DNA of 64,000 bases, taken from positions 1-64,000 of the forward strand of contig CAJOGX010000008.1 of NCBI GenBank assembly GCA_905234175.1. Direction: 5' to 3'. The translations under genes were made by a program, and so were the position numbers. Below are positions 9,067 through 18,149 of the stretch, piece after piece. This DNA comes from an uncultured Selenomonadaceae bacterium (lineage in GTDB: Bacteria > Bacillota > Negativicutes > Selenomonadales > Selenomonadaceae). The notes under the pieces were generated by a model. That model saw only the letters and a list, made by a program, of their open reading frames with translations, had not been told where the DNA came from and ran no database searches. Numbering within the stretch: position 1 is the first letter of the stretch; each line of letters starts with the position of its first letter.

Positions 9067-10050
9067 TTATTCCGTGTCAGAATCGAAATTCTCAATCGGA
9101 TATTCTTCGAGGGCGGCGCGCATTTCCGCAAAATCTTCGTCGGTGAGGGAGTACACCACCTTTTCAAAATCCTCCACGACTTTCCAGGCGCCGCTCTCAA
9201 GCAGCCGCTTCTGCAACTCGTTGCCGTCCTCAACCTCCAAATAGCTGTCGTACATCGCGTCAATGTCCGCCAGATTTTTCACCAGCTCGCTGACTTTGCC
9301 GTAAGTATCCAGCTCCGGCTCAGGGGAATTTTGCGCGGGAACTTTTTTGAGCCGCTTAAGATTCTGCTGCCAGCGCCGCCGGTCGAAATCGTCAAGCAGA
9401 TTCTGCGCAGATTCGTAGCGATCTTTCGGGTCGAGCTTAGTGCACTTCGCCAGAATTTTTTTCATCCAGCCGCCGTAATTTTTTCCGAGCAGCCGCTGAA
9501 TCGTGACGCCCAGCGAATAAATATCACTTCTGGCGTCCGTCTGCCCGAAGCCGTACTGTTCCGGCGGAGCGTAGCCGCGCGTGCCGAGAAATTCCGTGTC
9601 GGTGTCGCTGTCGTCCTTAGCCAGCCGCGCAATTCCAAAATCAATCAGCCGAATCACGCCGTCCTTCGTCAGCATGATATTCGCCGGCTTCAGGTCGCGG
9701 TGAATAATTTTGCGCGCGTGCAGGTCAATCAGACATTCGCAAACCTGCCGGAAAATATTCGCGGCGAGTTCCTCGTCAAAATTTTTTTCGTAGCTCAAAA
9801 TCTCGGCGAGCGTCCTGCCGCTGACGTATTCCTCGACGATAAAAAGTTTCCCGTCAAATTCCACAGCGCGATAAATTCTGGGAACGTAGCGGCTGTCAAT
9901 TTCGCGCAGAATTTTATAGAGCGCGGCGGTCTGAAGACTGCGCGCCTTGATAACGCAGATTTGTCTGGCGGCGCGGTTGTAGGCGAGCTTAACGCTACCG
10001 TCGGGCTTGAGCGCGTCAATCATCTCGTACAAATTTTCCAGCGGGTTCAC
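9067..10050 (-). CDS. Cytoplasmic serine/threonine protein kinase
   Basis: This Hanks-type kinase (about 327 residues) phosphorylates Ser/Thr of unknown targets. It has the VIK lysine near residue 35, HRDLKPANIM at about 117-126, DFG near 137, and an APPEQY activation-segment end. The Gly-rich loop is poor (DGSVKLAY). There is no transmembrane helix or extracellular PASTA domain, so it is soluble; the 100-residue C-terminal tail is helical and acidic. The GTG at 10050 is preferred over the in-frame GTG at 10059 because AAGGGAG then has an 8-nt spacer. It diverges from an XRE regulator and lies downstream of the AAA/STAND operon on the same strand. Confidence 0.9.
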   Translation of the reverse strand: MNPLENLYEMIDALKPDGSVKLAYNRAARQICVIKARSLQTAALYKILREIDSRYVPRIYRAVEFDGKLFIVEEYVSGRTLAEILSYEKNFDEELAANIFRQVCECLIDLHARKIIHRDLKPANIMLTKDGVIRLIDFGIARLAKDDSDTDTEFLGTRGYAPPEQYGFGQTDARSDIYSLGVTIQRLLGKNYGGWMKKILAKCTKLDPKDRYESAQNLLDDFDRRRWQQNLKRLKKVPAQNSPEPELDTYGKVSELVKNLADIDAMYDSYLEVEDGNELQKRLLESGAWKVVEDFEKVVYSLTDEDFAEMRAALEEYPIENFDSDTE

Positions 10051-10080
10051 GGCTTTCACTCCCTTGCAAAAAGTGATAAT

Positions 10081-10110: not shown

Positions 10111-10536
10111 ATGAGCGAAAAAACTACCGACGAGCTGTTCAACGAAATCAAGGCCGACGCCGATATTGAAAATTTTATTGCGGCGAATCAGGCGGAATTT
10201 ACCGGCAAGTTCCACGAATACTTACGCCAGCTCCTGTGCGAAAAAAATCTGACGGTACGGGATATCGCTGACGCGTTAAATCTGGACAGGAGCTACGTGC
10301 ACCACATATTTTCGGGCGCAAAAAAAACGTCGCGGGAAAGGCTTCTGGCAATCGCGCGAGTAATGCGACTGAACCTTCAGGCGACGCAATATTTGTTACG
10401 GTACGGCGGCTTCGCGATTTTGTACCCGCGAATCCCGTGGGACGCCGTGGTAATTTCAGCGATTGAGCACGACATGACTTTCGCAGAAATGAACGAGTAT
10501 TTGCGACAGCTGGGCGAGCTACCGATTGTCAAGTGA
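10111..10536 (+). CDS. XRE-family transcriptional regulator
   Basis: The 141-residue protein has an N-terminal helix pair, a Cro/CI-type helix-turn-helix near residues 45-95 (LTVRDIADALNLDRSYVHHIFSG), and a C-terminal helical half (LLRYGGFAILYPRIPWDAVVI then MTFAEMNEYLRQLGELPI) seen in other Firmicute XRE proteins and probably involved in sensing. The ATG at 10111 has GGAGG 7 nt upstream. The frame is open far upstream only because it runs antisense to the kinase. It is divergent from the kinase and its last 18 bases overlap the convergent Cys-cluster gene. Confidence 0.85.
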   Translation: MSEKTTDELFNEIKADADIENFIAANQAEFTGKFHEYLRQLLCEKNLTVRDIADALNLDRSYVHHIFSGAKKTSRERLLAIARVMRLNLQATQYLLRYGGFAILYPRIPWDAVVISAIEHDMTFAEMNEYLRQLGELPIVK

Positions 10537-10794
10537 CTCCGCTTTGAGTTTCGCGCAGGCTTCGTAGTTCAGCCGCAGGTATTCTTCTTCGCTGAAACTG
10601 CGCGCGAAATATTTTTCGTAGCCATGCTCGACACTGCAGCAATCCGGTCGGCTGTCGTAAATTTTGCAGAGGTTTGTTGACTCGTCAAGGAATTTGCAAA
10701 CGCCGTCGCCACGGTCGAAGTCTTTCAGCAAAGTTGAGCGGTTGATATGCCGGCAGCAGAGCCCGCAGCGGTCGCAGTGAAATTCAAAACTCAT
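10519..10794 (-). CDS. YkgJ-type cysteine cluster protein
   Basis: The 91-residue product matches the YkgJ (putative zinc- or iron-chelating) family: CDRCGLCCRH at residues 8-17, CKFL, CKIYDSRPDCC. Six or more Cys in this arrangement suggest a bound metal or Fe-S cluster. The role in this family is not firmly established. It is the last gene of the minus-strand operon; its ATG lies inside the end of the AAA+ gene and no ribosome site of its own is visible, so it is probably translated by coupling. Its 3' end overlaps the XRE gene by 18 bp. Confidence 0.85.
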   Translation of the reverse strand: MSFEFHCDRCGLCCRHINRSTLLKDFDRGDGVCKFLDESTNLCKIYDSRPDCCSVEHGYEKYFARSFSEEEYLRLNYEACAKLKAESLDNR

Positions 10795-11830
10795 TGAGTT
10801 TGGCGCGCGCCTCGAAGTGCCCAGCGTCCGCCGCCGCTCTGTAAAGTTCCAGCGCCTTAGCCTTATCCGCCATTCGCCCGTTCAGGCCGTAGTAAAATTC
10901 CTGCGCCTGCTGATAAAGTTTCTTCGCCTCTTCAGGGCTGACCTTTTTAGTCGCGCGGCGCTTAGCGGTAAATTCCTGGCTTTGATTCGCCGCCCTGCTC
11001 GCCAGAATATTTTCCACCGCCTCGAAAACCAGATTCTTATCCAGTTCGTCGACTCCTAATCTTGCCGCCTTGAACGCCGCGTTGAGAATTGCGGTTGAAA
11101 TGTCGCTGCCGGAAAGCCCGTCGTACTTTTTAGCGAGTTCCTTCGCGTCGATATTGTTGGGAAGTTCCGGCGGAATGTACATACGCCAGAGTTTTTCGCG
11201 GCAGGCTTCGTCGGGCAGTTCAAATTTGACGTGCATGGAAATTCTGCGCATGAATGCGGGGTCGAAGTTCTCAATAAAATTCGTGGCGAAAATTATGAAG
11301 TCCTCGTACTCGTTCATGAGCATGAGCATAACCGAACGCGTCTGGTTTACGCTCACATCAACCGCCTGCGTCATATTCGTCACGCGCTTGCTGAGAATCG
11401 CGTCCGCCTCGTCGAAAAAGAGAATGCTGCCGGAACTTTTCGCCGCCTCGAAAGCCTTGCGAATATTTTTTGGCGTTTCGCCGACGTACTTCGACTCGAT
11501 GTCCGCGTAGTTGACGATTAGAATTTTTTTGCCGAGCTTTTTGGCGATAGCGTGCGCCGCCATGGTCTTGCCGGTGCCTGGCGCGCCGTAAAGGTTGATC
11601 CCGATTCGCTTGGAATATTTGTGCGTGCGCTTGAATCCCCACAGCTCAAAAACTCGGTGAGAATTTTCCGCGTAGGTCGCCGCGTCAAGAATCTGTTCGC
11701 GCGTCGCCGGCGATAAAATTATATCTTCCAGCGAATAGCGCGGCTCCTCCGGCACGAAAATATTTTCCTCAGCAGATTTTTTTACTTCGGCGTTCGGGTC
11801 GACGCCTTTTTTTATTGGCAAGGAAATCAC
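10784..11830 (-). CDS. AAA+ ATPase with C-terminal Sel1-like repeat
   Basis: This 348-residue classical AAA+ protein has Walker A GAPGTGKT at about 82-89, the pore-loop-like stretch SKYVGETPKN near 113-122, Walker B SILFFDEADA with Asp140/Glu141, and arginine fingers in AFMRRISMHV. The last 45 residues (AKKLYQQAQEFYYGL...KALELYRAAADAGHFEAR) form one or two Sel1/TPR-like repeats, pointing to a protein partner. It would use ATP to remodel a protein, probably another product of the operon. The start is GTG with GAGG just upstream. It lies 11 nt after the RNxxxH-containing gene. Confidence 0.88.
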   Translation of the reverse strand: MISLPIKKGVDPNAEVKKSAEENIFVPEEPRYSLEDIILSPATREQILDAATYAENSHRVFELWGFKRTHKYSKRIGINLYGAPGTGKTMAAHAIAKKLGKKILIVNYADIESKYVGETPKNIRKAFEAAKSSGSILFFDEADAILSKRVTNMTQAVDVSVNQTRSVMLMLMNEYEDFIIFATNFIENFDPAFMRRISMHVKFELPDEACREKLWRMYIPPELPNNIDAKELAKKYDGLSGSDISTAILNAAFKAARLGVDELDKNLVFEAVENILASRAANQSQEFTAKRRATKKVSPEEAKKLYQQAQEFYYGLNGRMADKAKALELYRAAADAGHFEARAKLNEF

Positions 11831-11841
11831 CGCCTCAATTT

Positions 11842-12876
11842 TTATTCTGACAACGTGAATAATTTTTCAAGCTCGCTGAGCTCGATGGTTTTCAGGTGCG
11901 AAAGGTCGTTGCGGGCGCCGTAGGCAAGTTCCAGCAAATTCCAGTCGTCGAGCTGAAAAATTTTGTGCTTGCCGCCGTAGTAGTGCAGGTGACGGAGTTC
12001 CATATCGAACGGCTCAAAAAGAATCGTGCCGAACTCGTCCTGCACCGGCAAAATTCGGCGGAGCTGCTGCTCATTTTTGACGATAAGCCGCTCGCGAATC
12101 TGCTCCAGCGTCGGCAGGAAAAATTTCACCTGGCATTCCCAGACCGCGCGCGAAAAAATTCTTTCGTCGAACCCAGGCAGGATCCGCCGCACAAATTCCA
12201 GCCCGTAATTGTACAAATCGACCCGCGCGAGATTTTTTACAAGCTCCGGCGAATACCCCGAAAGTTTTTCCGCCAGCGTCGACGTGTACATTTTTTTCTT
12301 AGCGGAAAGCGGCGCGTTTTCCAGAAAGTTTATCGCGAAAAACTGAACGTCGTAGGGCGTCAGAAAATCTTCGAGGCGCGCGATATTCGGCGGCGGGTTT
12401 TCCTCCGACGTTACGAAAATCAGCGCGACGCCAAAATTCGCCGTGCCGCGATTAAATTCCGTGACGGCGTCGGTCAGCCAGTCGGTTTTGGTTTCGAGCC
12501 GGATAATAATCGCCGAATAGCCGTGGAACGGTTTCTGCTTCGCTAAATCTTCCATTGGCTGGCGCGTAAAATTCCGCTGGAAATTCGGCGCAAATTCCGC
12601 CGTCAGCGCGTCAACGAAATCGCCGATTGTCCCGCCGTCGAAGTAGCTGAACCGCTCAATCAGCGAATTTATATCCTTGCGCTGAATTTTTTCCTCCAGC
12701 GCCTGAATGAACCCTTCGGCGTCTTTTTCCGGCAGGTGCACGGCGATTGCGCATTTTTTATTGAAAGCCTCGACGGCCGTGTTTAAAAATCTGCGCGCGC
12801 CTGGAATTGCCCGCCACCACGAATCAAGTTCGTCCTGGTCGAGCGGCTGAATATAAACCGAATCTGAACTGCTCAT
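11842..12876 (-). CDS. ATPase-like protein without a P-loop, ending in an RNxxxH (HEPN-like) motif
   Basis: I do not recognise a named family for this 344-residue protein. The first 230 residues follow the strand-helix order of a STAND/AAA module: a strand CAIAVHLPE where a P-loop would be expected but no GxxxxGK[ST], a hydrophobic strand SAIIIRLE in the Walker B place, ALIFVTSE resembling sensor 1, then a helical lid. The C-terminal part is helical and ends with ARNDLSHLK (Arg322, His327), the RNxxxH pattern of HEPN ribonucleases, although a non-catalytic Swt1-like helical domain is also possible. It overlaps the STAND gene by 4 nt with GGGAGG upstream. Confidence 0.6.
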   Translation of the reverse strand: MSSSDSVYIQPLDQDELDSWWRAIPGARRFLNTAVEAFNKKCAIAVHLPEKDAEGFIQALEEKIQRKDINSLIERFSYFDGGTIGDFVDALTAEFAPNFQRNFTRQPMEDLAKQKPFHGYSAIIIRLETKTDWLTDAVTEFNRGTANFGVALIFVTSEENPPPNIARLEDFLTPYDVQFFAINFLENAPLSAKKKMYTSTLAEKLSGYSPELVKNLARVDLYNYGLEFVRRILPGFDERIFSRAVWECQVKFFLPTLEQIRERLIVKNEQQLRRILPVQDEFGTILFEPFDMELRHLHYYGGKHKIFQLDDWNLLELAYGARNDLSHLKTIELSELEKLFTLSE

Positions 12877-15800
12877 GACGCGCCTCCCTCAGCCCGCGTG
12901 AAAGAGTCGAGTTTTTCGCCGACTTCAACGAAGGTGCCGAGCATGTGGCGGAAGGAATAGCGGTTGAACTCGAATTTGTCGTCAACGCGGCGGAAAAGAT
13001 TGAGCGCAACCATTTCGTCAAGCAGTCCCAGTAAATTTTCGTCGCTGAGCCTTGTAATTTTTTCGATACCGAAACAGACGTCGCGAATCTGCGTGAGGTC
13101 GACGCTGACGGGGCGGTCGTCGTGTTCGTAGCAAATCCACGCAACCGCCAGCGCAAGAATTTCGTAGTAGTTGTCGTCAACGACGGCGAGCGTGTCCTGA
13201 AAACGCTGCTTGATTTCCTTTTGAAATTCGCTGTTGCCCAGCATGTTTTTCAGATAATTATTGTCCAGCGTGTACGGCGGATTTTTCGTGGCGTCGAAGT
13301 TGCGGTTCTGATAATTATTCTTGACGGACTCGACGAGCATTTGGCAATAGTACTGAATCAGACCCGGGTAATAATTCGTGTGGCTGAGAATCGCGCTGAT
13401 CAGACTTTCGTCCTCGACGTGGAAGCCGAGGTAGCTCATTGGCTTGATGAAAAGTTCCATGGCGTCGGGCGTGCGGAAGGGCAAAACGGAAATGTGATTG
13501 AGGTTGCCGAAGCTGGAATTTTTTTCAAAGCGGATGACTTTGTGGAGGCCGGCGAGCACGAATTTGAATTTGCCGCTGAACTCTATAAGGAGCTGGCGGA
13601 AAACATTGATAGCGTTTTCGGTATCGTCGTCGCTGAGGAAGGCGTCACTTTCGTCGAGCAGGAGCATAAGTTTTTTCGGCTCTTCGACGCCGCGCAGCTG
13701 TCCGCTAAGGAGTTTGTGCATTTCCAGCGAAAATTCCGCCCAGGTTTCGACTTCGCCGAGGAGTTTGGCGCCGCGCAGTTCAAGCACGATTCGCTGAAGG
13801 GCGGCTTTGCTGTCCAAATCTTTCAGGTCGATAAAAAATGCGTAGCTGAGCTGAGCGGGATTGTGCTCAAGATTTTTAACCTGCCGCAGGAGCGCGGATT
13901 TACCGAGCTGGCGGCCGCCGTAAACGAAAACGGGGCCAGTCATGTCGCGGATTTTGTCAAGTTCCTCCGAGCGCCCGATAAACATTTCCGGCGCAAGGAC
14001 GCCGCGCGAAGTGTACGGTTGAACGCGCGCGAAGGGAAGGGCGGCCTGCAGCATACGCTTGCCGCGATTGGCGTCGTCGAAGTGCGTGAGATACAGCGCC
14101 AGAACCTGGTCGATGACGATAATATTTTTCAAGTTCACTTCGAGCTTGAAAGCCTTAGCGAGCTGGCGGCGTTCGGGCAGACGGAGCGCGGTATCAATCA
14201 GACAGATTTTCCCGCGGTCCGCCATAACCATATCGCCGAGCACCTTGGCAATGTTGTCGGGCGAGCGGTTGGCGCCGAGGTAAATGACTTCGAGGCCTTT
14301 GCTGAAAATTTCGGTGCCGAAAACGGTGAACGGGTGCGGATAATTCGTGCGCGCATGAATGGGGCTGCTGAAACTGACGGTGTAGGACTTCGCATTTTTT
14401 TCGTTCATGTTCTGCGCAGAAATTTTGCCGTCGTAGCCGAGGTGCTTAAGAATTTCGACGATAGAAATTTCTATAGCGTTGTTCTGACCGGAATGAATGC
14501 CCTGCCAGCCGCGCGCGAAGGCCAGCGCGTCCTGCGTTTCGCGGTTGAGAATTTTGGTGCTGGTGATGTGTTTGCGCTGCATGTAGGCGCCTTCGACGGA
14601 GCCGCGCGCGTTGATTATGTCGTGGAAAAGCACTTCGTACTTGTTGAGGAAATCCTCCAGCGTTTCCAAATCCGAATCCATGAGGTCGAGATTTGTCAGC
14701 AGACTGCCGCCCTCGCGTTCGATTCGGTTCATGTAATCTTCGGCGACGGTGAAATTTCTCAGCTGAATCTGGTGGCGGACTTCGGAAATGAGTTTGTAGC
14801 GGGTTTCGAGCGTCTCGCCTTCGCTGAGGTTGCTGCGCAGATTTTCTTCGAGCCTGCCGAGCCGTTCAGTCATAGCGCTGCTCTGCGTCTGCGAAGCGTC
14901 GTCGATGGATTTGTTGCAGGCGGCGATAAAGCGCTGAAAGAGGCCGGCGTTTTTGGTGTAGGAAAAATGCTCGCGGGCGGCGGCGACAACTTTGCTGTAC
15001 TCGTCAATTTTTTTCTGGTCGGTTATGCGCGAATACGTCCGCGCCAGCTCAAGGTCATTCAGGAAATTGTCATAGGCGCGCTGAATCTGCCGCTCAACGC
15101 TGCGCTCAAAAGAATCTTCGTCCGTGAGCTTCGACTGCTGAGGAAAATGCTGCGAAAGGCACTGCCAAATTCCGAAGTCGTAGTTTTGAATCGCGGTATC
15201 GTAAGCGGTCTGCAGATTTTCCGCGAAAGATTTCCCGTCGAGATCCGCCTCAAAATTATCCACGCGCTTCTTGAGCGAAAATTCTTCTACGCCGAAAGAA
15301 TCTGTTACGGGCAAATCTTTTTCGAGTTCGATATACTTCGAGCCGAGCAGGCAGGCGCCGTAGGAAAGCAAAGTATTTTCGCCGCTGAGTTTCCTGCCGA
15401 GGTTTTCAACAAATAAGCGAAAGACTATTTGACCAATCGTAGTTCTGTCGGTGACGGCGGGGAGCTGGCTTTTGAGTTCGTCGAGAATTTCGAGCGCCTT
15501 ATCAGCTGGCGCGCTGGGTTTCGAGCCGCTGCCGGAGGCGTCGAATTTCCTTTTGGCGTGCAGGTAGTTCAAAAGCGCCGTCAGAATGTCGCTCATGACT
15601 TTATAAAGTTCCTTGCGGCTGATTTTGTCGTTGACGCCTTCCCTGTCGCGGAGCATGGGGTTGACGAGGGATTTGCCGCCAATTTTTTCGATAAAGTTAT
15701 CGATTTTCTTTTTGGAGAAAATTTTTTCGTCGATAATCGCGCTGCCGTCTTCGACGATTTGATTTAAATCGGCGTCGGTGAACTGCTGGCAGAACTCCAG

Positions 15801-18149
15801 AATTTCTTCGGGCGAATGTTCGTCCACGTCCAATAATTTGCGCACGTCGCCGTTATTTCTGAAGTACTGCTGCACTTCTTCCTTGAGGCTGTAGCGCTTA
15901 ATCAGAAGGGATTCGGTTTTCTGTTTGGCATCTTCGAGGAGTGCAAGCGCGGCGTTAAAATTACTTTCGCTGTTATCGCCGGAGCCCTGCAGGCAGTCCG
16001 CGAAGGCGAGCCCGTTGTTTTCCGTGAAGAGGTTGAAAATGCTGGCGAGTTTTTTAGCGGCGGGAAGTTCCTTCAGTGCGGCGTTTGACTTATCGCCGTT
16101 TAACTGCCGCCAGAGCTGCTGAATCTGGTAATTTGAAGGATTGGCGGGCGCGAAGAAATTTTTAATCGTCGCCGCCAGGTTCAAATAGTCAGCGCCGATG
16201 TTGACTTTTGAAACTTCGAGGCCGCTCGTCCAGAAACTGTACGTGTCGAAATCGTGGAGCGTGCTGAGCGTAACGGGGTCGTCGAGGATAAAGCCAATTT
16301 CGCGCGTCAGATCGTCAATCCAAAGTTCGTTTTCGTTGTCAGCGAAATAATCTTTCAGCGCGTGCAGAGCCAGCATACCGCGACCGGTTTCGCCTTCCCT
16401 GAAAAGTTTCGCGACTTTTTTCAGCGAATCGGAGCGGAAAATATCTTCGTCGGTTGTCAGCGTTTCGACGGGCGGCTCAACGATAACGGCGGGCTTGATT
16501 TTCGTTTCAGTAACTGCGGGTTCGATTTTGGTTTCAGTTTCCGGCGCGCCGCTGAAAATATCTTCGCCGTCGTCGGGCGTTTCCTCCGCGTCAGAATCAA
16601 TCGTGACGGGCTGGGCGGGTTCGTCCGTCAGAAGATTTTTGAGCGTGTCGAGGCTGACTTCGCTGCCGGTTCTGTCAAAGAGCCCTTCCCAGGTAAACAT
16701 GAGGAAGTTGACTTTTTTGAGCTTGAGCGTCTCGAAAATTTTGAGCCAGGCGAGGTCTTCCTTGTGGAGCGCGAAAATAATTACCGCCTTCAAATCCGTG
16801 CCGGCTTCGAGTTCGCGTTCAATGATAAGGCGGAAAGACGCGACGTGAGATTCAACCCCCGAGCCGATTAGTATCAGCGAGAACATGAGCACGACGCGAT
16901 TTTTGTCGGCGCCGTCCACGAAGTTTGTGCGCGCGATTGGCATCAGACCGCCGTAGGGGAATTTGATTTTCAGAATGTCGCGCAGGCGCATTTCGTACAT
17001 TGCCAGCGTCGAAAAACGCAGCGCGTCAATCATCGTGATAAAATAATTTTTGTTGACATTTTTCGGCACGTTGCGTTTAAGGTAGCGGCAGCAAAGTTCC
17101 AGCCCGAAATCGTTGAGGAAATAAAATACAATTCCGCGCCAGGTAACTTTGTCGACGATACCCCAGTTGAAAAATTTGTCGCAGAAGGCGGGGAAGTCGG
17201 GAATTTTTTTGCTGAGCTTGCCGACGTTGAAAATGCTGCTGGGGTCGTCCCTGAAAAAAATTCTGGTGTTGATAAGCAGTTCGACGACGGCGACGGAATC
17301 GTTGCTGCTGAGGATGTCGCGGATTTTGTTCCTGAACGCCTTGACGCTGGTTTTCTTGTTATCGGGCGCCTCTTCGATTTTGAAGTTGTTCCTGTCGACG
17401 GTTACGAGCGACAAATCGAGCGGCGGGACGGCGTTTTCCATTTTTTTCCGCACGTCGGAGATTGAGCGCTTTGCAGGAATTGGCGGGAAATTCAGCGGCG
17501 TCGGTTCGGGCTGTACTTTTTCGGCGGGCGGTTCCGGCTTTGGTTGTTGAACTTTTTGTTTTTTGAAGTGCAGAATGCGGCGCATGACCGCCATTGTTAT
17601 CAGCGGCGTTTCGGAAAAATTTTCGTGTACCCTGAGGAAATCTTCTTCGGAAAGTTCCTCCGTTTCGCTGGCGCCGTCGATAATTTCAGCGAGCAGAATA
17701 AATTTCTTCGCAATGTTGGCAAGGTGGTTGGGCTCGGTACTGTCGGCTTTGTTTTTGAGTTCCTCAGCTCTGGCCTGAATTTTTTGGACGGCTTCGAGCA
17801 TTGTGGGGGACTTGGAATCGACTGTGAGCGTGGAAAATCTTTCGAGGACTTTGGTAATTTGTTCGAGCTTGCAAATTTGTTCAAGGCGGTTCAAACTTTT
17901 GTCGACGACCTCAAGTTTTCGGGAAGTCGCCGCCATTTTCAGCTGTTCGACTGAGAAAAATTCCTGCTGCGCGCCTAAAATTTGTTCAAGCAGCTGGTGC
18001 ACTTCCTCAGAATCTGCGTCGATAAACAATCCCTTTTCGATTGAGCTGGCAATTTCTGTCAGGATTGGTTTCAGCTGCCAGCGCGATTCGTTCATCTGCT
18101 CGAATAATTTTCGCAGTTTGTCCAGCGCGTCCGAATTTAAATTTTCCAT
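12873..18149 (-). CDS. Giant STAND-like ATPase (1758 residues)
   Basis: The N-terminal 200 residues are helical, followed by a Pro/Lys/Glu-rich linker and a globular domain to about 500. A second acidic linker (about 505-560) leads to a long helical array (560-1210). An alpha/beta domain follows (about 1250-1380). The C-terminal ATPase begins at MFIGRSEEL, with Walker A GGRQLGKS at 1411-1418, Walker B LMLLLDES near 1494-1501 and a winged-helix-like end. This order fits a STAND signalling NTPase with a large sensor region. GGAGG precedes the ATG. It heads a coupled operon with the pseudo-ATPase, AAA+ and Cys-cluster genes. No transmembrane segment is seen. Codon use is like the neighbours, so recent transfer is not evident. 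Function unknown. Confidence 0.75.
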   Translation of the reverse strand: MENLNSDALDKLRKLFEQMNESRWQLKPILTEIASSIEKGLFIDADSEEVHQLLEQILGAQQEFFSVEQLKMAATSRKLEVVDKSLNRLEQICKLEQITKVLERFSTLTVDSKSPTMLEAVQKIQARAEELKNKADSTEPNHLANIAKKFILLAEIIDGASETEELSEEDFLRVHENFSETPLITMAVMRRILHFKKQKVQQPKPEPPAEKVQPEPTPLNFPPIPAKRSISDVRKKMENAVPPLDLSLVTVDRNNFKIEEAPDNKKTSVKAFRNKIRDILSSNDSVAVVELLINTRIFFRDDPSSIFNVGKLSKKIPDFPAFCDKFFNWGIVDKVTWRGIVFYFLNDFGLELCCRYLKRNVPKNVNKNYFITMIDALRFSTLAMYEMRLRDILKIKFPYGGLMPIARTNFVDGADKNRVVLMFSLILIGSGVESHVASFRLIIERELEAGTDLKAVIIFALHKEDLAWLKIFETLKLKKVNFLMFTWEGLFDRTGSEVSLDTLKNLLTDEPAQPVTIDSDAEETPDDGEDIFSGAPETETKIEPAVTETKIKPAVIVEPPVETLTTDEDIFRSDSLKKVAKLFREGETGRGMLALHALKDYFADNENELWIDDLTREIGFILDDPVTLSTLHDFDTYSFWTSGLEVSKVNIGADYLNLAATIKNFFAPANPSNYQIQQLWRQLNGDKSNAALKELPAAKKLASIFNLFTENNGLAFADCLQGSGDNSESNFNAALALLEDAKQKTESLLIKRYSLKEEVQQYFRNNGDVRKLLDVDEHSPEEILEFCQQFTDADLNQIVEDGSAIIDEKIFSKKKIDNFIEKIGGKSLVNPMLRDREGVNDKISRKELYKVMSDILTALLNYLHAKRKFDASGSGSKPSAPADKALEILDELKSQLPAVTDRTTIGQIVFRLFVENLGRKLSGENTLLSYGACLLGSKYIELEKDLPVTDSFGVEEFSLKKRVDNFEADLDGKSFAENLQTAYDTAIQNYDFGIWQCLSQHFPQQSKLTDEDSFERSVERQIQRAYDNFLNDLELARTYSRITDQKKIDEYSKVVAAAREHFSYTKNAGLFQRFIAACNKSIDDASQTQSSAMTERLGRLEENLRSNLSEGETLETRYKLISEVRHQIQLRNFTVAEDYMNRIEREGGSLLTNLDLMDSDLETLEDFLNKYEVLFHDIINARGSVEGAYMQRKHITSTKILNRETQDALAFARGWQGIHSGQNNAIEISIVEILKHLGYDGKISAQNMNEKNAKSYTVSFSSPIHARTNYPHPFTVFGTEIFSKGLEVIYLGANRSPDNIAKVLGDMVMADRGKICLIDTALRLPERRQLAKAFKLEVNLKNIIVIDQVLALYLTHFDDANRGKRMLQAALPFARVQPYTSRGVLAPEMFIGRSEELDKIRDMTGPVFVYGGRQLGKSALLRQVKNLEHNPAQLSYAFFIDLKDLDSKAALQRIVLELRGAKLLGEVETWAEFSLEMHKLLSGQLRGVEEPKKLMLLLDESDAFLSDDDTENAINVFRQLLIEFSGKFKFVLAGLHKVIRFEKNSSFGNLNHISVLPFRTPDAMELFIKPMSYLGFHVEDESLISAILSHTNYYPGLIQYYCQMLVESVKNNYQNRNFDATKNPPYTLDNNYLKNMLGNSEFQKEIKQRFQDTLAVVDDNYYEILALAVAWICYEHDDRPVSVDLTQIRDVCFGIEKITRLSDENLLGLLDEMVALNLFRRVDDKFEFNRYSFRHMLGTFVEVGEKLDSFTRAEGGAS

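Follow-up and report, generated by a model that had tools for sequence, protein, structure and literature searches.

Two kinds of described system are close to the gene pair reported here. In bacteriophage exclusion (BREX), according to the accessible part of the source, BrxC is an ORC-type ATPase and its partner BrxB an inactive STAND protein (PMC12839542), and in the Swt1-HEPN/DUF499 AAA+ fusions (Hma / BREX-related Type-1) an ORC/Cdc6-like ATPase drives the system. The present analysis concerns a stretch of 64,000 nucleotides from an uncultured Selenomonadaceae bacterium (GenBank assembly GCA_905234175.1, contig CAJOGX010000008.1, positions 1 to 64,000, hereafter the window), in which two adjoining genes, A and B, encode a giant predicted ATPase and a small protein with a predicted HEPN domain. 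From the letters of this DNA alone an earlier reading (the original prediction) had proposed a coupled operon of four genes, A to D, for which it knew no named system. We find instead a two-gene module, A+B, which many bacteria carry as a unit. The pair appears to be so far unnamed, since no PADLOC model matches A or B and no description of it was found in the accessible literature, most subscription journals, preprints and supplements being outside the coverage.

Gene A (12873..18149, minus strand, 1758 aa) is the first core gene and codes for a putative sensor/transducer nucleoside triphosphatase, and gene B (11842..12876, minus strand, 344 aa), which overlaps it by 4 nt, is the second. When 84,980 species genomes were scanned, 538 stretches encoding A were found, and the best 80 of these, ranked by similarity to the window, were analyzed; frequencies within these 80 loci are not frequencies in nature. 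When all open reading frames (ORFs) are considered, B lies beside A in 72 of the 80 loci, all 72 pairs being co-oriented on one strand with a median gap of 1.5 nt (at most 60 nt in 63 of them). Among the eight loci without B, three (L087, L119 and L120) end no more than 211 nt behind A and five (L068, L074, L075, L078 and L134) have room for the gene. A search of the family gave 31 loci besides that of the window, partly the same as those of the scan, with B in 28, the others being L059, where the contig ends, L038, and L033, in whose genome (G113) B lies on another contig. The RN...H motif of B described below is intact in 71 of the 72 scan loci and 27 of the 28 family loci, the exceptions being L077, where B is split over two ORFs, and L060, where its end is changed. 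The identities of A and B correlate over 58 loci with r 0.92, whereas none of 999 permutations exceeded 0.17, a comparison in which the kinship of the host genomes is uncontrolled. No third gene was found in more than 7 of the 80 A loci. In one genome (G098; L036 / L067) a 619-aa ORF lies between A and B and the B frame holds one stop, a possible insertion that would have broken the pair.

Long homologues of A occur across Bacillota with the conserved parts in the same order, and the homology extends along the protein. The least conserved part is formed by the N-terminal 500 residues, which are undetected in part of the relatives. This weakly conserved region (residues 1-510; 16620..18149, minus strand), which our N1 and N2 profiles miss in part of the relatives, is a candidate sensor. 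It is followed by a mostly helical middle (residues 560-1224; 14478..16472, minus strand) as judged from the AlphaFold2 model, with a few tetratricopeptide repeat matches in relatives, and by a conserved alpha/beta domain (residues 1225-1390; 13980..14477, minus strand) directly N-terminal to the ATPase. The C-terminal part (residues 1385-1758; 12876..13997, minus strand) looks like an active AAA+ ATPase of the ORC/Cdc6-STAND type, with a winged-helix-like appearance towards its end. The Walker A motif, which the original prediction had correctly placed at residues 1411-1418, reads GGRQLGKS (13896..13919, minus strand) and is kept as GGRQLGK[ST] in 54 of 54 A tails, so that it is not a chance match. 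In the aligned A proteins D1499 of the Walker B motif is invariant and E1500 invariant or nearly so. Single A proteins match the Pfam families AAA_14, AAA_22, ATPase_2 and AAA_16. The AlphaFold2 model of residues 561-1758 has a mean predicted local distance difference test score (pLDDT) of 85 and a predicted template modelling score of 0.73, and its closest folds in Foldseek are the archaeal Walker ATPase 2qen (E 3.3e-6) and ORC/Cdc6 chains, in agreement with the large STAND-like NTPase that had been expected. At the sequence level A found only two matches in the PDB, with E values of 0.02 and 0.16, which we take as chance.

B was modelled with high confidence (mean pLDDT 95.5) and has a helical C-terminus. 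Residues 14-190 (12307..12837, minus strand) appear to form an AAA+/clamp-loader-like fold without a P-loop. Compared as a whole in Foldseek, B finds clamp-loader (RFC), ORC and NLR structures with E values from 2e-4 to 1e-2, at TM-scores of 0.23-0.38 and a high root mean square deviation, and viral structures agree with the AAA+-like core. The whole-chain comparison supports such a core in the modelled protein and little beyond that. Of 58 B proteins 57 lack a P-loop pattern, and the lone match, at residue 21, is judged to lie outside the P-loop place, as fits the P-loop-less ATPase-like protein of the original prediction. The idea that the AAA-like part of B is a recent copy of the A ATPase was rejected, as hhalign finds no similarity between the two (0.3%). 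Against PDB sequences the B profile found nothing up to E 10 and single B nothing up to E 1.

The C-terminal part of B (residues 232-344; 11845..12183, minus strand) was assigned to the Swt1-type HEPN domains by profile-profile comparison. Against a reference of ten HEPN_Swt1 domains hhalign gave a probability of 79.7%, E 1.5e-5 and a score of 34.6, with the RN..[AS]H of B falling on the RN..AH of the reference. As controls, none of five further regions from A and B exceeded 0.5%, and the highest score among 60 column shuffles was 19.0. The motif itself, RNDLSH at residues 322-327 (11896..11913, minus strand), had been noticed earlier as HEPN-like, and all 58 aligned B proteins have W20, W21, P255, E258, R261, R322, N323 and H327 in common. 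As R, N and H are each kept in all 58, the motif cannot be due to chance. The model and its comparison support a Walker-less AAA+-like domain in B, and the profile comparison supports a Swt1-type HEPN domain after it.

Relatives of A were also found in 24 plasmid records, of which ten loci were read and B was sought among the tested ORFs; eight of the ten gave a B match. Together with a copy from a viral contig these make nine distant B proteins, and each of the nine keeps the R and H of the motif in the aligned position (RN...H in eight). The viral-contig copy (L153:6983-13515) encodes A and B proteins of 1845 and 332 aa on a 74 kb IMG/VR contig that may be viral or plasmid in origin. In three alpha-proteobacterial copies B carries an additional AAA_33 end (Azospirillum L160, 7.8e-15; Microvirga L162, 4.4e-14; Bradyrhizobium L163, 3.2e-11); the Agrobacterium copy L161 gave a weak match below the cut-off (5e-4) and the Streptomyces plasmid B none. 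The PDB chains closest to the kinase-like domain of the Microvirga B are Pnkp1 4xrp and 4jst, deposited as a metallophosphoesterase, which we take to be the Clostridium thermocellum Pnkp kinase. Cleavage by HEPN enzymes is expected to yield 5'-OH ends, which are the substrate of Pnkp-type kinases, and a Pnkp-like kinase on the B of these relatives therefore supports the prediction that the HEPN domain is an active nuclease.

On the A side of three of these loci a PIWI module is joined to the ATPase. The Microvirga relative L162 is a single protein of 3394 aa with pPIWI_RE_X, MID and RNaseH_pPIWI_RE (7e-27) followed by the A ATPase, the Bradyrhizobium relative L163 a single protein of 3100 aa in which pPIWI_RE (2.8e-22) is fused to the A ATPase, and in Azospirillum ramasamyi (L160:1588-11364) pPIWI_RE is split over two adjacent ORFs, the second running into the A ATPase. 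This type of pPIWI_RE was found in 14 plasmid records, at least seven of which, from three genera, also hold a relative of A. When the Microvirga pPIWI_RE part was sought in loci L031-L166 it was found only in L160, L162 and L163 and in none of the Bacillota loci, and the window A gave no pPIWI_RE match, MID and RNaseH included. This fusion points to nucleic-acid sensing by at least some versions of A+B. Downstream of A and B on the Agrobacterium plasmid (L161:14180-17556) are genes for ThiF and a patatin phospholipase, presumably CBASS-like.

Within the family 32 of 151 genomes match A (the genome of the window included), 24 from its own genus and 8 from other genera, and in a sample of the phylum 11 of 398, again with its own genome. 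A is present in 49 of 60 congeneric genomes, mostly in one copy, many of these genomes being incomplete. The genome of the window (2.0 Mb, 82% complete) has rumen Selenomonadaceae as its nearest named relatives in the scan with A. A tree of A with 96 rows was made by a quick method, with group labels taken from record titles and most loci of the family search left out as near-duplicates. It groups the window lineage (24 Selenomonadaceae) with Paenibacillaceae (99*) and places other congeneric copies among Clostridia; on the starred branches the Selenomonadaceae label must change four times or more, and long branches leave the place of several rows unsure. According to this tree there are two unrelated A lineages in one genus, which implies at least two arrivals or the replacement of one copy by another. 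No genome with both lineages was seen among the 60, and one (G568) perhaps holds two copies of a single lineage. From the two lineages and the changes of label we conclude that A+B would have been mobile over long times, yet it is nearly fixed in the genus. The second lineage (L048-L059) sits at one shared place behind ABC-transporter-like genes as read from the sequence; a CBS-domain-like gene is nearby in nine of these 12 loci. A clean empty site beside the gene that we call U was not found in the genomes read, and since the genes adjoining U vary between these genomes the boundaries of an insertion cannot be read. Relative synonymous codon usage was compared with that of 11 pooled window genes, which themselves span 0.63-0.98; the correlations were 0.87 for A, 0.84 for B and 0.89 for C, all within the neighbour range, as had been claimed earlier; the value for D was 0.58, its 91 codons being too short for judgement. 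The suggestion that the genes may be resident rather than recently acquired fits the codon usage and the presence in 49 of 60 genomes, and it is opposed by the two unrelated lineages.

We infer the RNase (ribonuclease) activity, docking, trigger and defence role of the pair along the following lines. A would be the sensor and transducer, with its fast-changing N-terminus, helical middle, alpha/beta domain and C-terminal ORC/Cdc6-STAND ATPase, and B the effector, the dead AAA+-like domain of which is expected to dock on the A ATPase. In clamp loaders subunits without a working P-loop dock on ATPase subunits, and by analogy BrxB may dock on BrxC and B on A. Meeting its trigger, A would exchange nucleotide and assemble, and the assembly would bring the HEPN domains of B close to one another, R322, H327 and E258 then making up an active site that would cut RNA and thereby stop growth or destroy foreign transcripts. 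That A+B is a two-gene RNase module switched by nucleoside triphosphate (NTP) we hold to be slightly better than an even bet, and the wider proposal that it is a conflict system is favoured to about the same degree or marginally more. Such an NTP-driven RNase switch preserves the nucleotide-driven signalling or conflict character that had been read from the composition of the locus, and the pair may represent an overlooked defence or RNA-surveillance system. The patchy occurrence outside the genus, the plasmid copies, the PIWI fusion, the HEPN effector, the ThiF and patatin genes and single neighbours matching CRISPR models all speak for conflict.

A number of findings weigh against this proposal of an NTP-switched RNase acting in conflict. 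HEPN families are marked by Rx4-6H with N, D or H after the R and commonly by a second mark, Ex3[KR], according to the accessible part of the source (PMC3710099); B matches the first exactly and has the acidic mark as E-x2-R. Single B proteins match Pfam HEPN families weakly (HEPN_Swt1 in 5 of 58, the best at 0.02), and no recognised HEPN structure is among the best 50 PDB matches of whole B in Foldseek. The Azospirillum L160 B has RRGMAH for RNxxxH, and the Microvirga L162 B has lost the E and R pair. No B was found among the tested ORFs of two plasmid loci, Brasilonema L159, in which a helicase gene adjoins A in place of B, and Bosea L164, in which two short ORFs gave no B match. A search with a single B sequence found the gene in 39 of the 60 genus genomes, fewer than A; the same search missed B genes read beside A in fetched loci, e.g. 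in G134 and G128, so that the gap is partly due to lack of search reach. The frequency of A in the genus is high for a defence gene, A is absent from 50,697 phage records, and four relatives in viral contigs are counted on the same side, as are the window neighbours, which are housekeeping genes such as dnaE, RNase J, thrS and copA (8 window proteins scanned). Finally, 123 of 157 neighbouring ORFs from the Bacillota/Spirochaetota loci outside Selenomonadaceae were scanned (six longer than 900 aa, the last 11 and 17 more being left out), some of which may be spurious and for which there was no control set. Few reached PADLOC models at 1e-15, and the 25 families listed for them are mostly metabolic; single neighbours match models of CRISPR Csn2, Cas10 and Cas5/Cas7. 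The scan is weak evidence either way.

The deviations in B bear on the reading that its HEPN domain is inactive and that A+B is an ORC/clamp-loader-like complex on DNA, capturing or marking foreign DNA. The closest solved folds of B (clamp-loader and ORC subunits, NLRs), the ORC/Cdc6-like nature of A and the two distant B proteins that deviate at supporting residues are all compatible with such a complex, and BREX provides a parallel in the ORC-type BrxC with the inactive STAND protein BrxB, as far as the accessible text goes (PMC12839542). The conservation of R322, N323, H327, E258 and R261 in 58 of 58 B proteins and of R and H in nine of nine distant ones argues on the contrary for kept catalysis, and so does the Pnkp-type kinase-like domain fused to B in relatives. 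We consider such a DNA-bound complex improbable.

The frequency in the genus bears on another explanation, in which A+B is a resident, ATP-regulated machine for RNA processing or RNA stress, a functional parallel of Las1-Grc3, and not a defence system. The mostly single-copy presence of A in 49 of 60 genomes, the shared place of 12 loci (L048-L059) behind ABC-transporter-like genes, the housekeeping neighbours in the window and the kinase-like end on the alpha-proteobacterial B would all suit such a machine. So would a gene for an RNA 2'-phosphotransferase (KptA/Tpt1, PF01885) near A/B in two Fusicatenibacter loci (L098:5128-5835, 3e-37, and L110:2079-2756, 3e-38), the product of which could act on RNA ends next to a HEPN enzyme. 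A resident machine is harder to reconcile with the patchy distribution outside the genus (8 genomes of other genera, 11 of 398 in the phylum sample), with two unrelated lineages in one genus and plasmid-borne relatives, and with the PIWI-module fusion and fast-changing N-terminus. It appears unlikely on balance, though it deserves to be taken more seriously than the DNA-bound complex.

A more far-reaching form of the conflict proposal, which we put forward tentatively and would not expect to hold in full, is that A+B is a modular immune platform, in which one engine of ATPase and dead-AAA-HEPN protein is coupled to different sensors. In alpha-proteobacteria the sensor would be an Argonaute-like PIWI module, whose guide-directed recognition would turn on RNA cleavage, and the effector would gain a Pnkp-like RNA kinase; in Bacillota and the rumen Selenomonadaceae the N-terminal region would do the sensing. 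No described counterpart of a route from PIWI to HEPN was found in the literature searched. If the proposal is true, the 538 A-encoding stretches constitute a family of NTP-switched RNases that is unmodelled in PADLOC, and an ORC/Cdc6-STAND switch, a HEPN RNase, a Pnkp-like kinase and a PIWI module become linked. The pPIWI_RE proteins would thereby gain a testable effector, and the module would illustrate how an AAA+ relay can couple a nucleic-acid sensor to a general RNase.

Genes C and D appear to be local neighbours outside the core. C (10784..11830, minus strand, 348 aa, GTG start) encodes an AAA+ ATPase (PF00004, 5e-30) the end of which gives a weak Sel1-like match, and D (10519..10794, minus strand, 91 aa) a CxxCxxCC protein (PF03692, 2e-8), so that both were correctly recognised in the original prediction as an AAA+ ATPase and a Cys-cluster protein. 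Its four ORFs also lie exactly where it had put them, with an 11 nt gap between B and C and an 11 nt overlap between C and D. These overlaps, the same gene order in the nearest relative (G558/L062) and the presence of a D-like gene at four of the 80 A loci, with a relative 43% identical near B in G563 (L180), are what favours a four-gene conflict system in which C and D are working parts. Two of the four D-like genes are downstream and two upstream (L062, L063, L076 and L140, the last from Lachnospiraceae), and D may be a neighbour that recurs without being firmly tied to A. Of 60 congeneric genomes 53 carry C, many of them in two or three copies. The assemblies are fragmented, and C was found on the same contig as A in four of them, the window genome, G558, G012 and G147; directly behind B it was seen only in the window and G558/L062. 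In 11 genus genomes no A was found at 1e-20, and ten of these contain C; G040, which belongs to the 11, does have a divergent A and B. Six genomes have A without C. With C mostly off the contig of A and present without it, and with no third gene recurring in more than 7 of 80 loci, the four-gene system was rejected for the family at large, and we regard it as very improbable. The original prediction had said that the system idea would fail if homologues of the large ATPase occurred without the other three genes; on that test the set of four fails and A and B together do not, B recurring in 72 of 80 A loci and C and D not doing so.

Beside the operon lie a gene for a Ser/Thr protein kinase (9067-10059, minus strand) and a convergent XRE-type helix-turn-helix (HTH) gene (10111-10536, plus strand), the end of which overlaps D by 18 nt. 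The kinase has a 90% identical counterpart at the same place in G558, and in G012 a kinase 64% identical to it adjoins C. Relatives of the HTH gene, paralogues counted, were found in 44 of 60 genus genomes.

Among known systems, IetAS can be compared through C, which matches IetA models (PADLOC, 1e-37) with IetA/TRIP13-like scores at 129.9 bits, below the curated IteA cut-off of 510; among the PADLOC matches listed there is no model for A, B or D and no IetS model for the window kinase. The likeness to pPIWI-RE systems is confined to the alpha-proteobacterial relatives of A, with pPIWI_RE_X, MID and RNaseH, the window A being without pPIWI_RE. The accessible part of the 2013 pPIWI-RE paper has restriction endonuclease and DinG partners or standalone genes, and the word HEPN is absent from it (PMC3702460). 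In the parts available of two further papers, one on Dnd names HEPN co-effectors and does not describe the A+B pair (PMC10853773), and one on EVE/DCD is irrelevant to PIWI-RE (PMC7641849). Las1-Grc3 likewise unites HEPN and a polynucleotide kinase in one machine (PMC10942766, as far as accessible) and is eukaryotic, whereas A+B is bacterial, has an ORC-like ATPase, and shows a kinase-like part only in alpha-proteobacterial relatives.

The Swt1-HEPN/DUF499 fusions share with B the same type of HEPN domain, as judged by hhalign, and open frames of roughly 1140 aa, taken here as such fusions, are present in six of the ten HEPN_Swt1 reference loci. In A+B, by contrast, the HEPN domain and the predicted active ATPase are on two proteins, the HEPN protein has a dead AAA+ domain of its own, and the 80 A loci show no recurrent methylase or helicase partner. 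BREX resembles A+B in that, according to the part of the source available, an active ORC/Cdc6-like large ATPase, BrxC, goes together with a Walker-less relative, BrxB (PMC12839542). It differs in its further components, no recurrent third gene able to be PglZ or a methylase being present in the 80 A loci, and in the position of the ATPase, which is N-terminal in BrxC and C-terminal in A. It differs also in the Walker-less partner, which in A+B carries the predicted HEPN domain.

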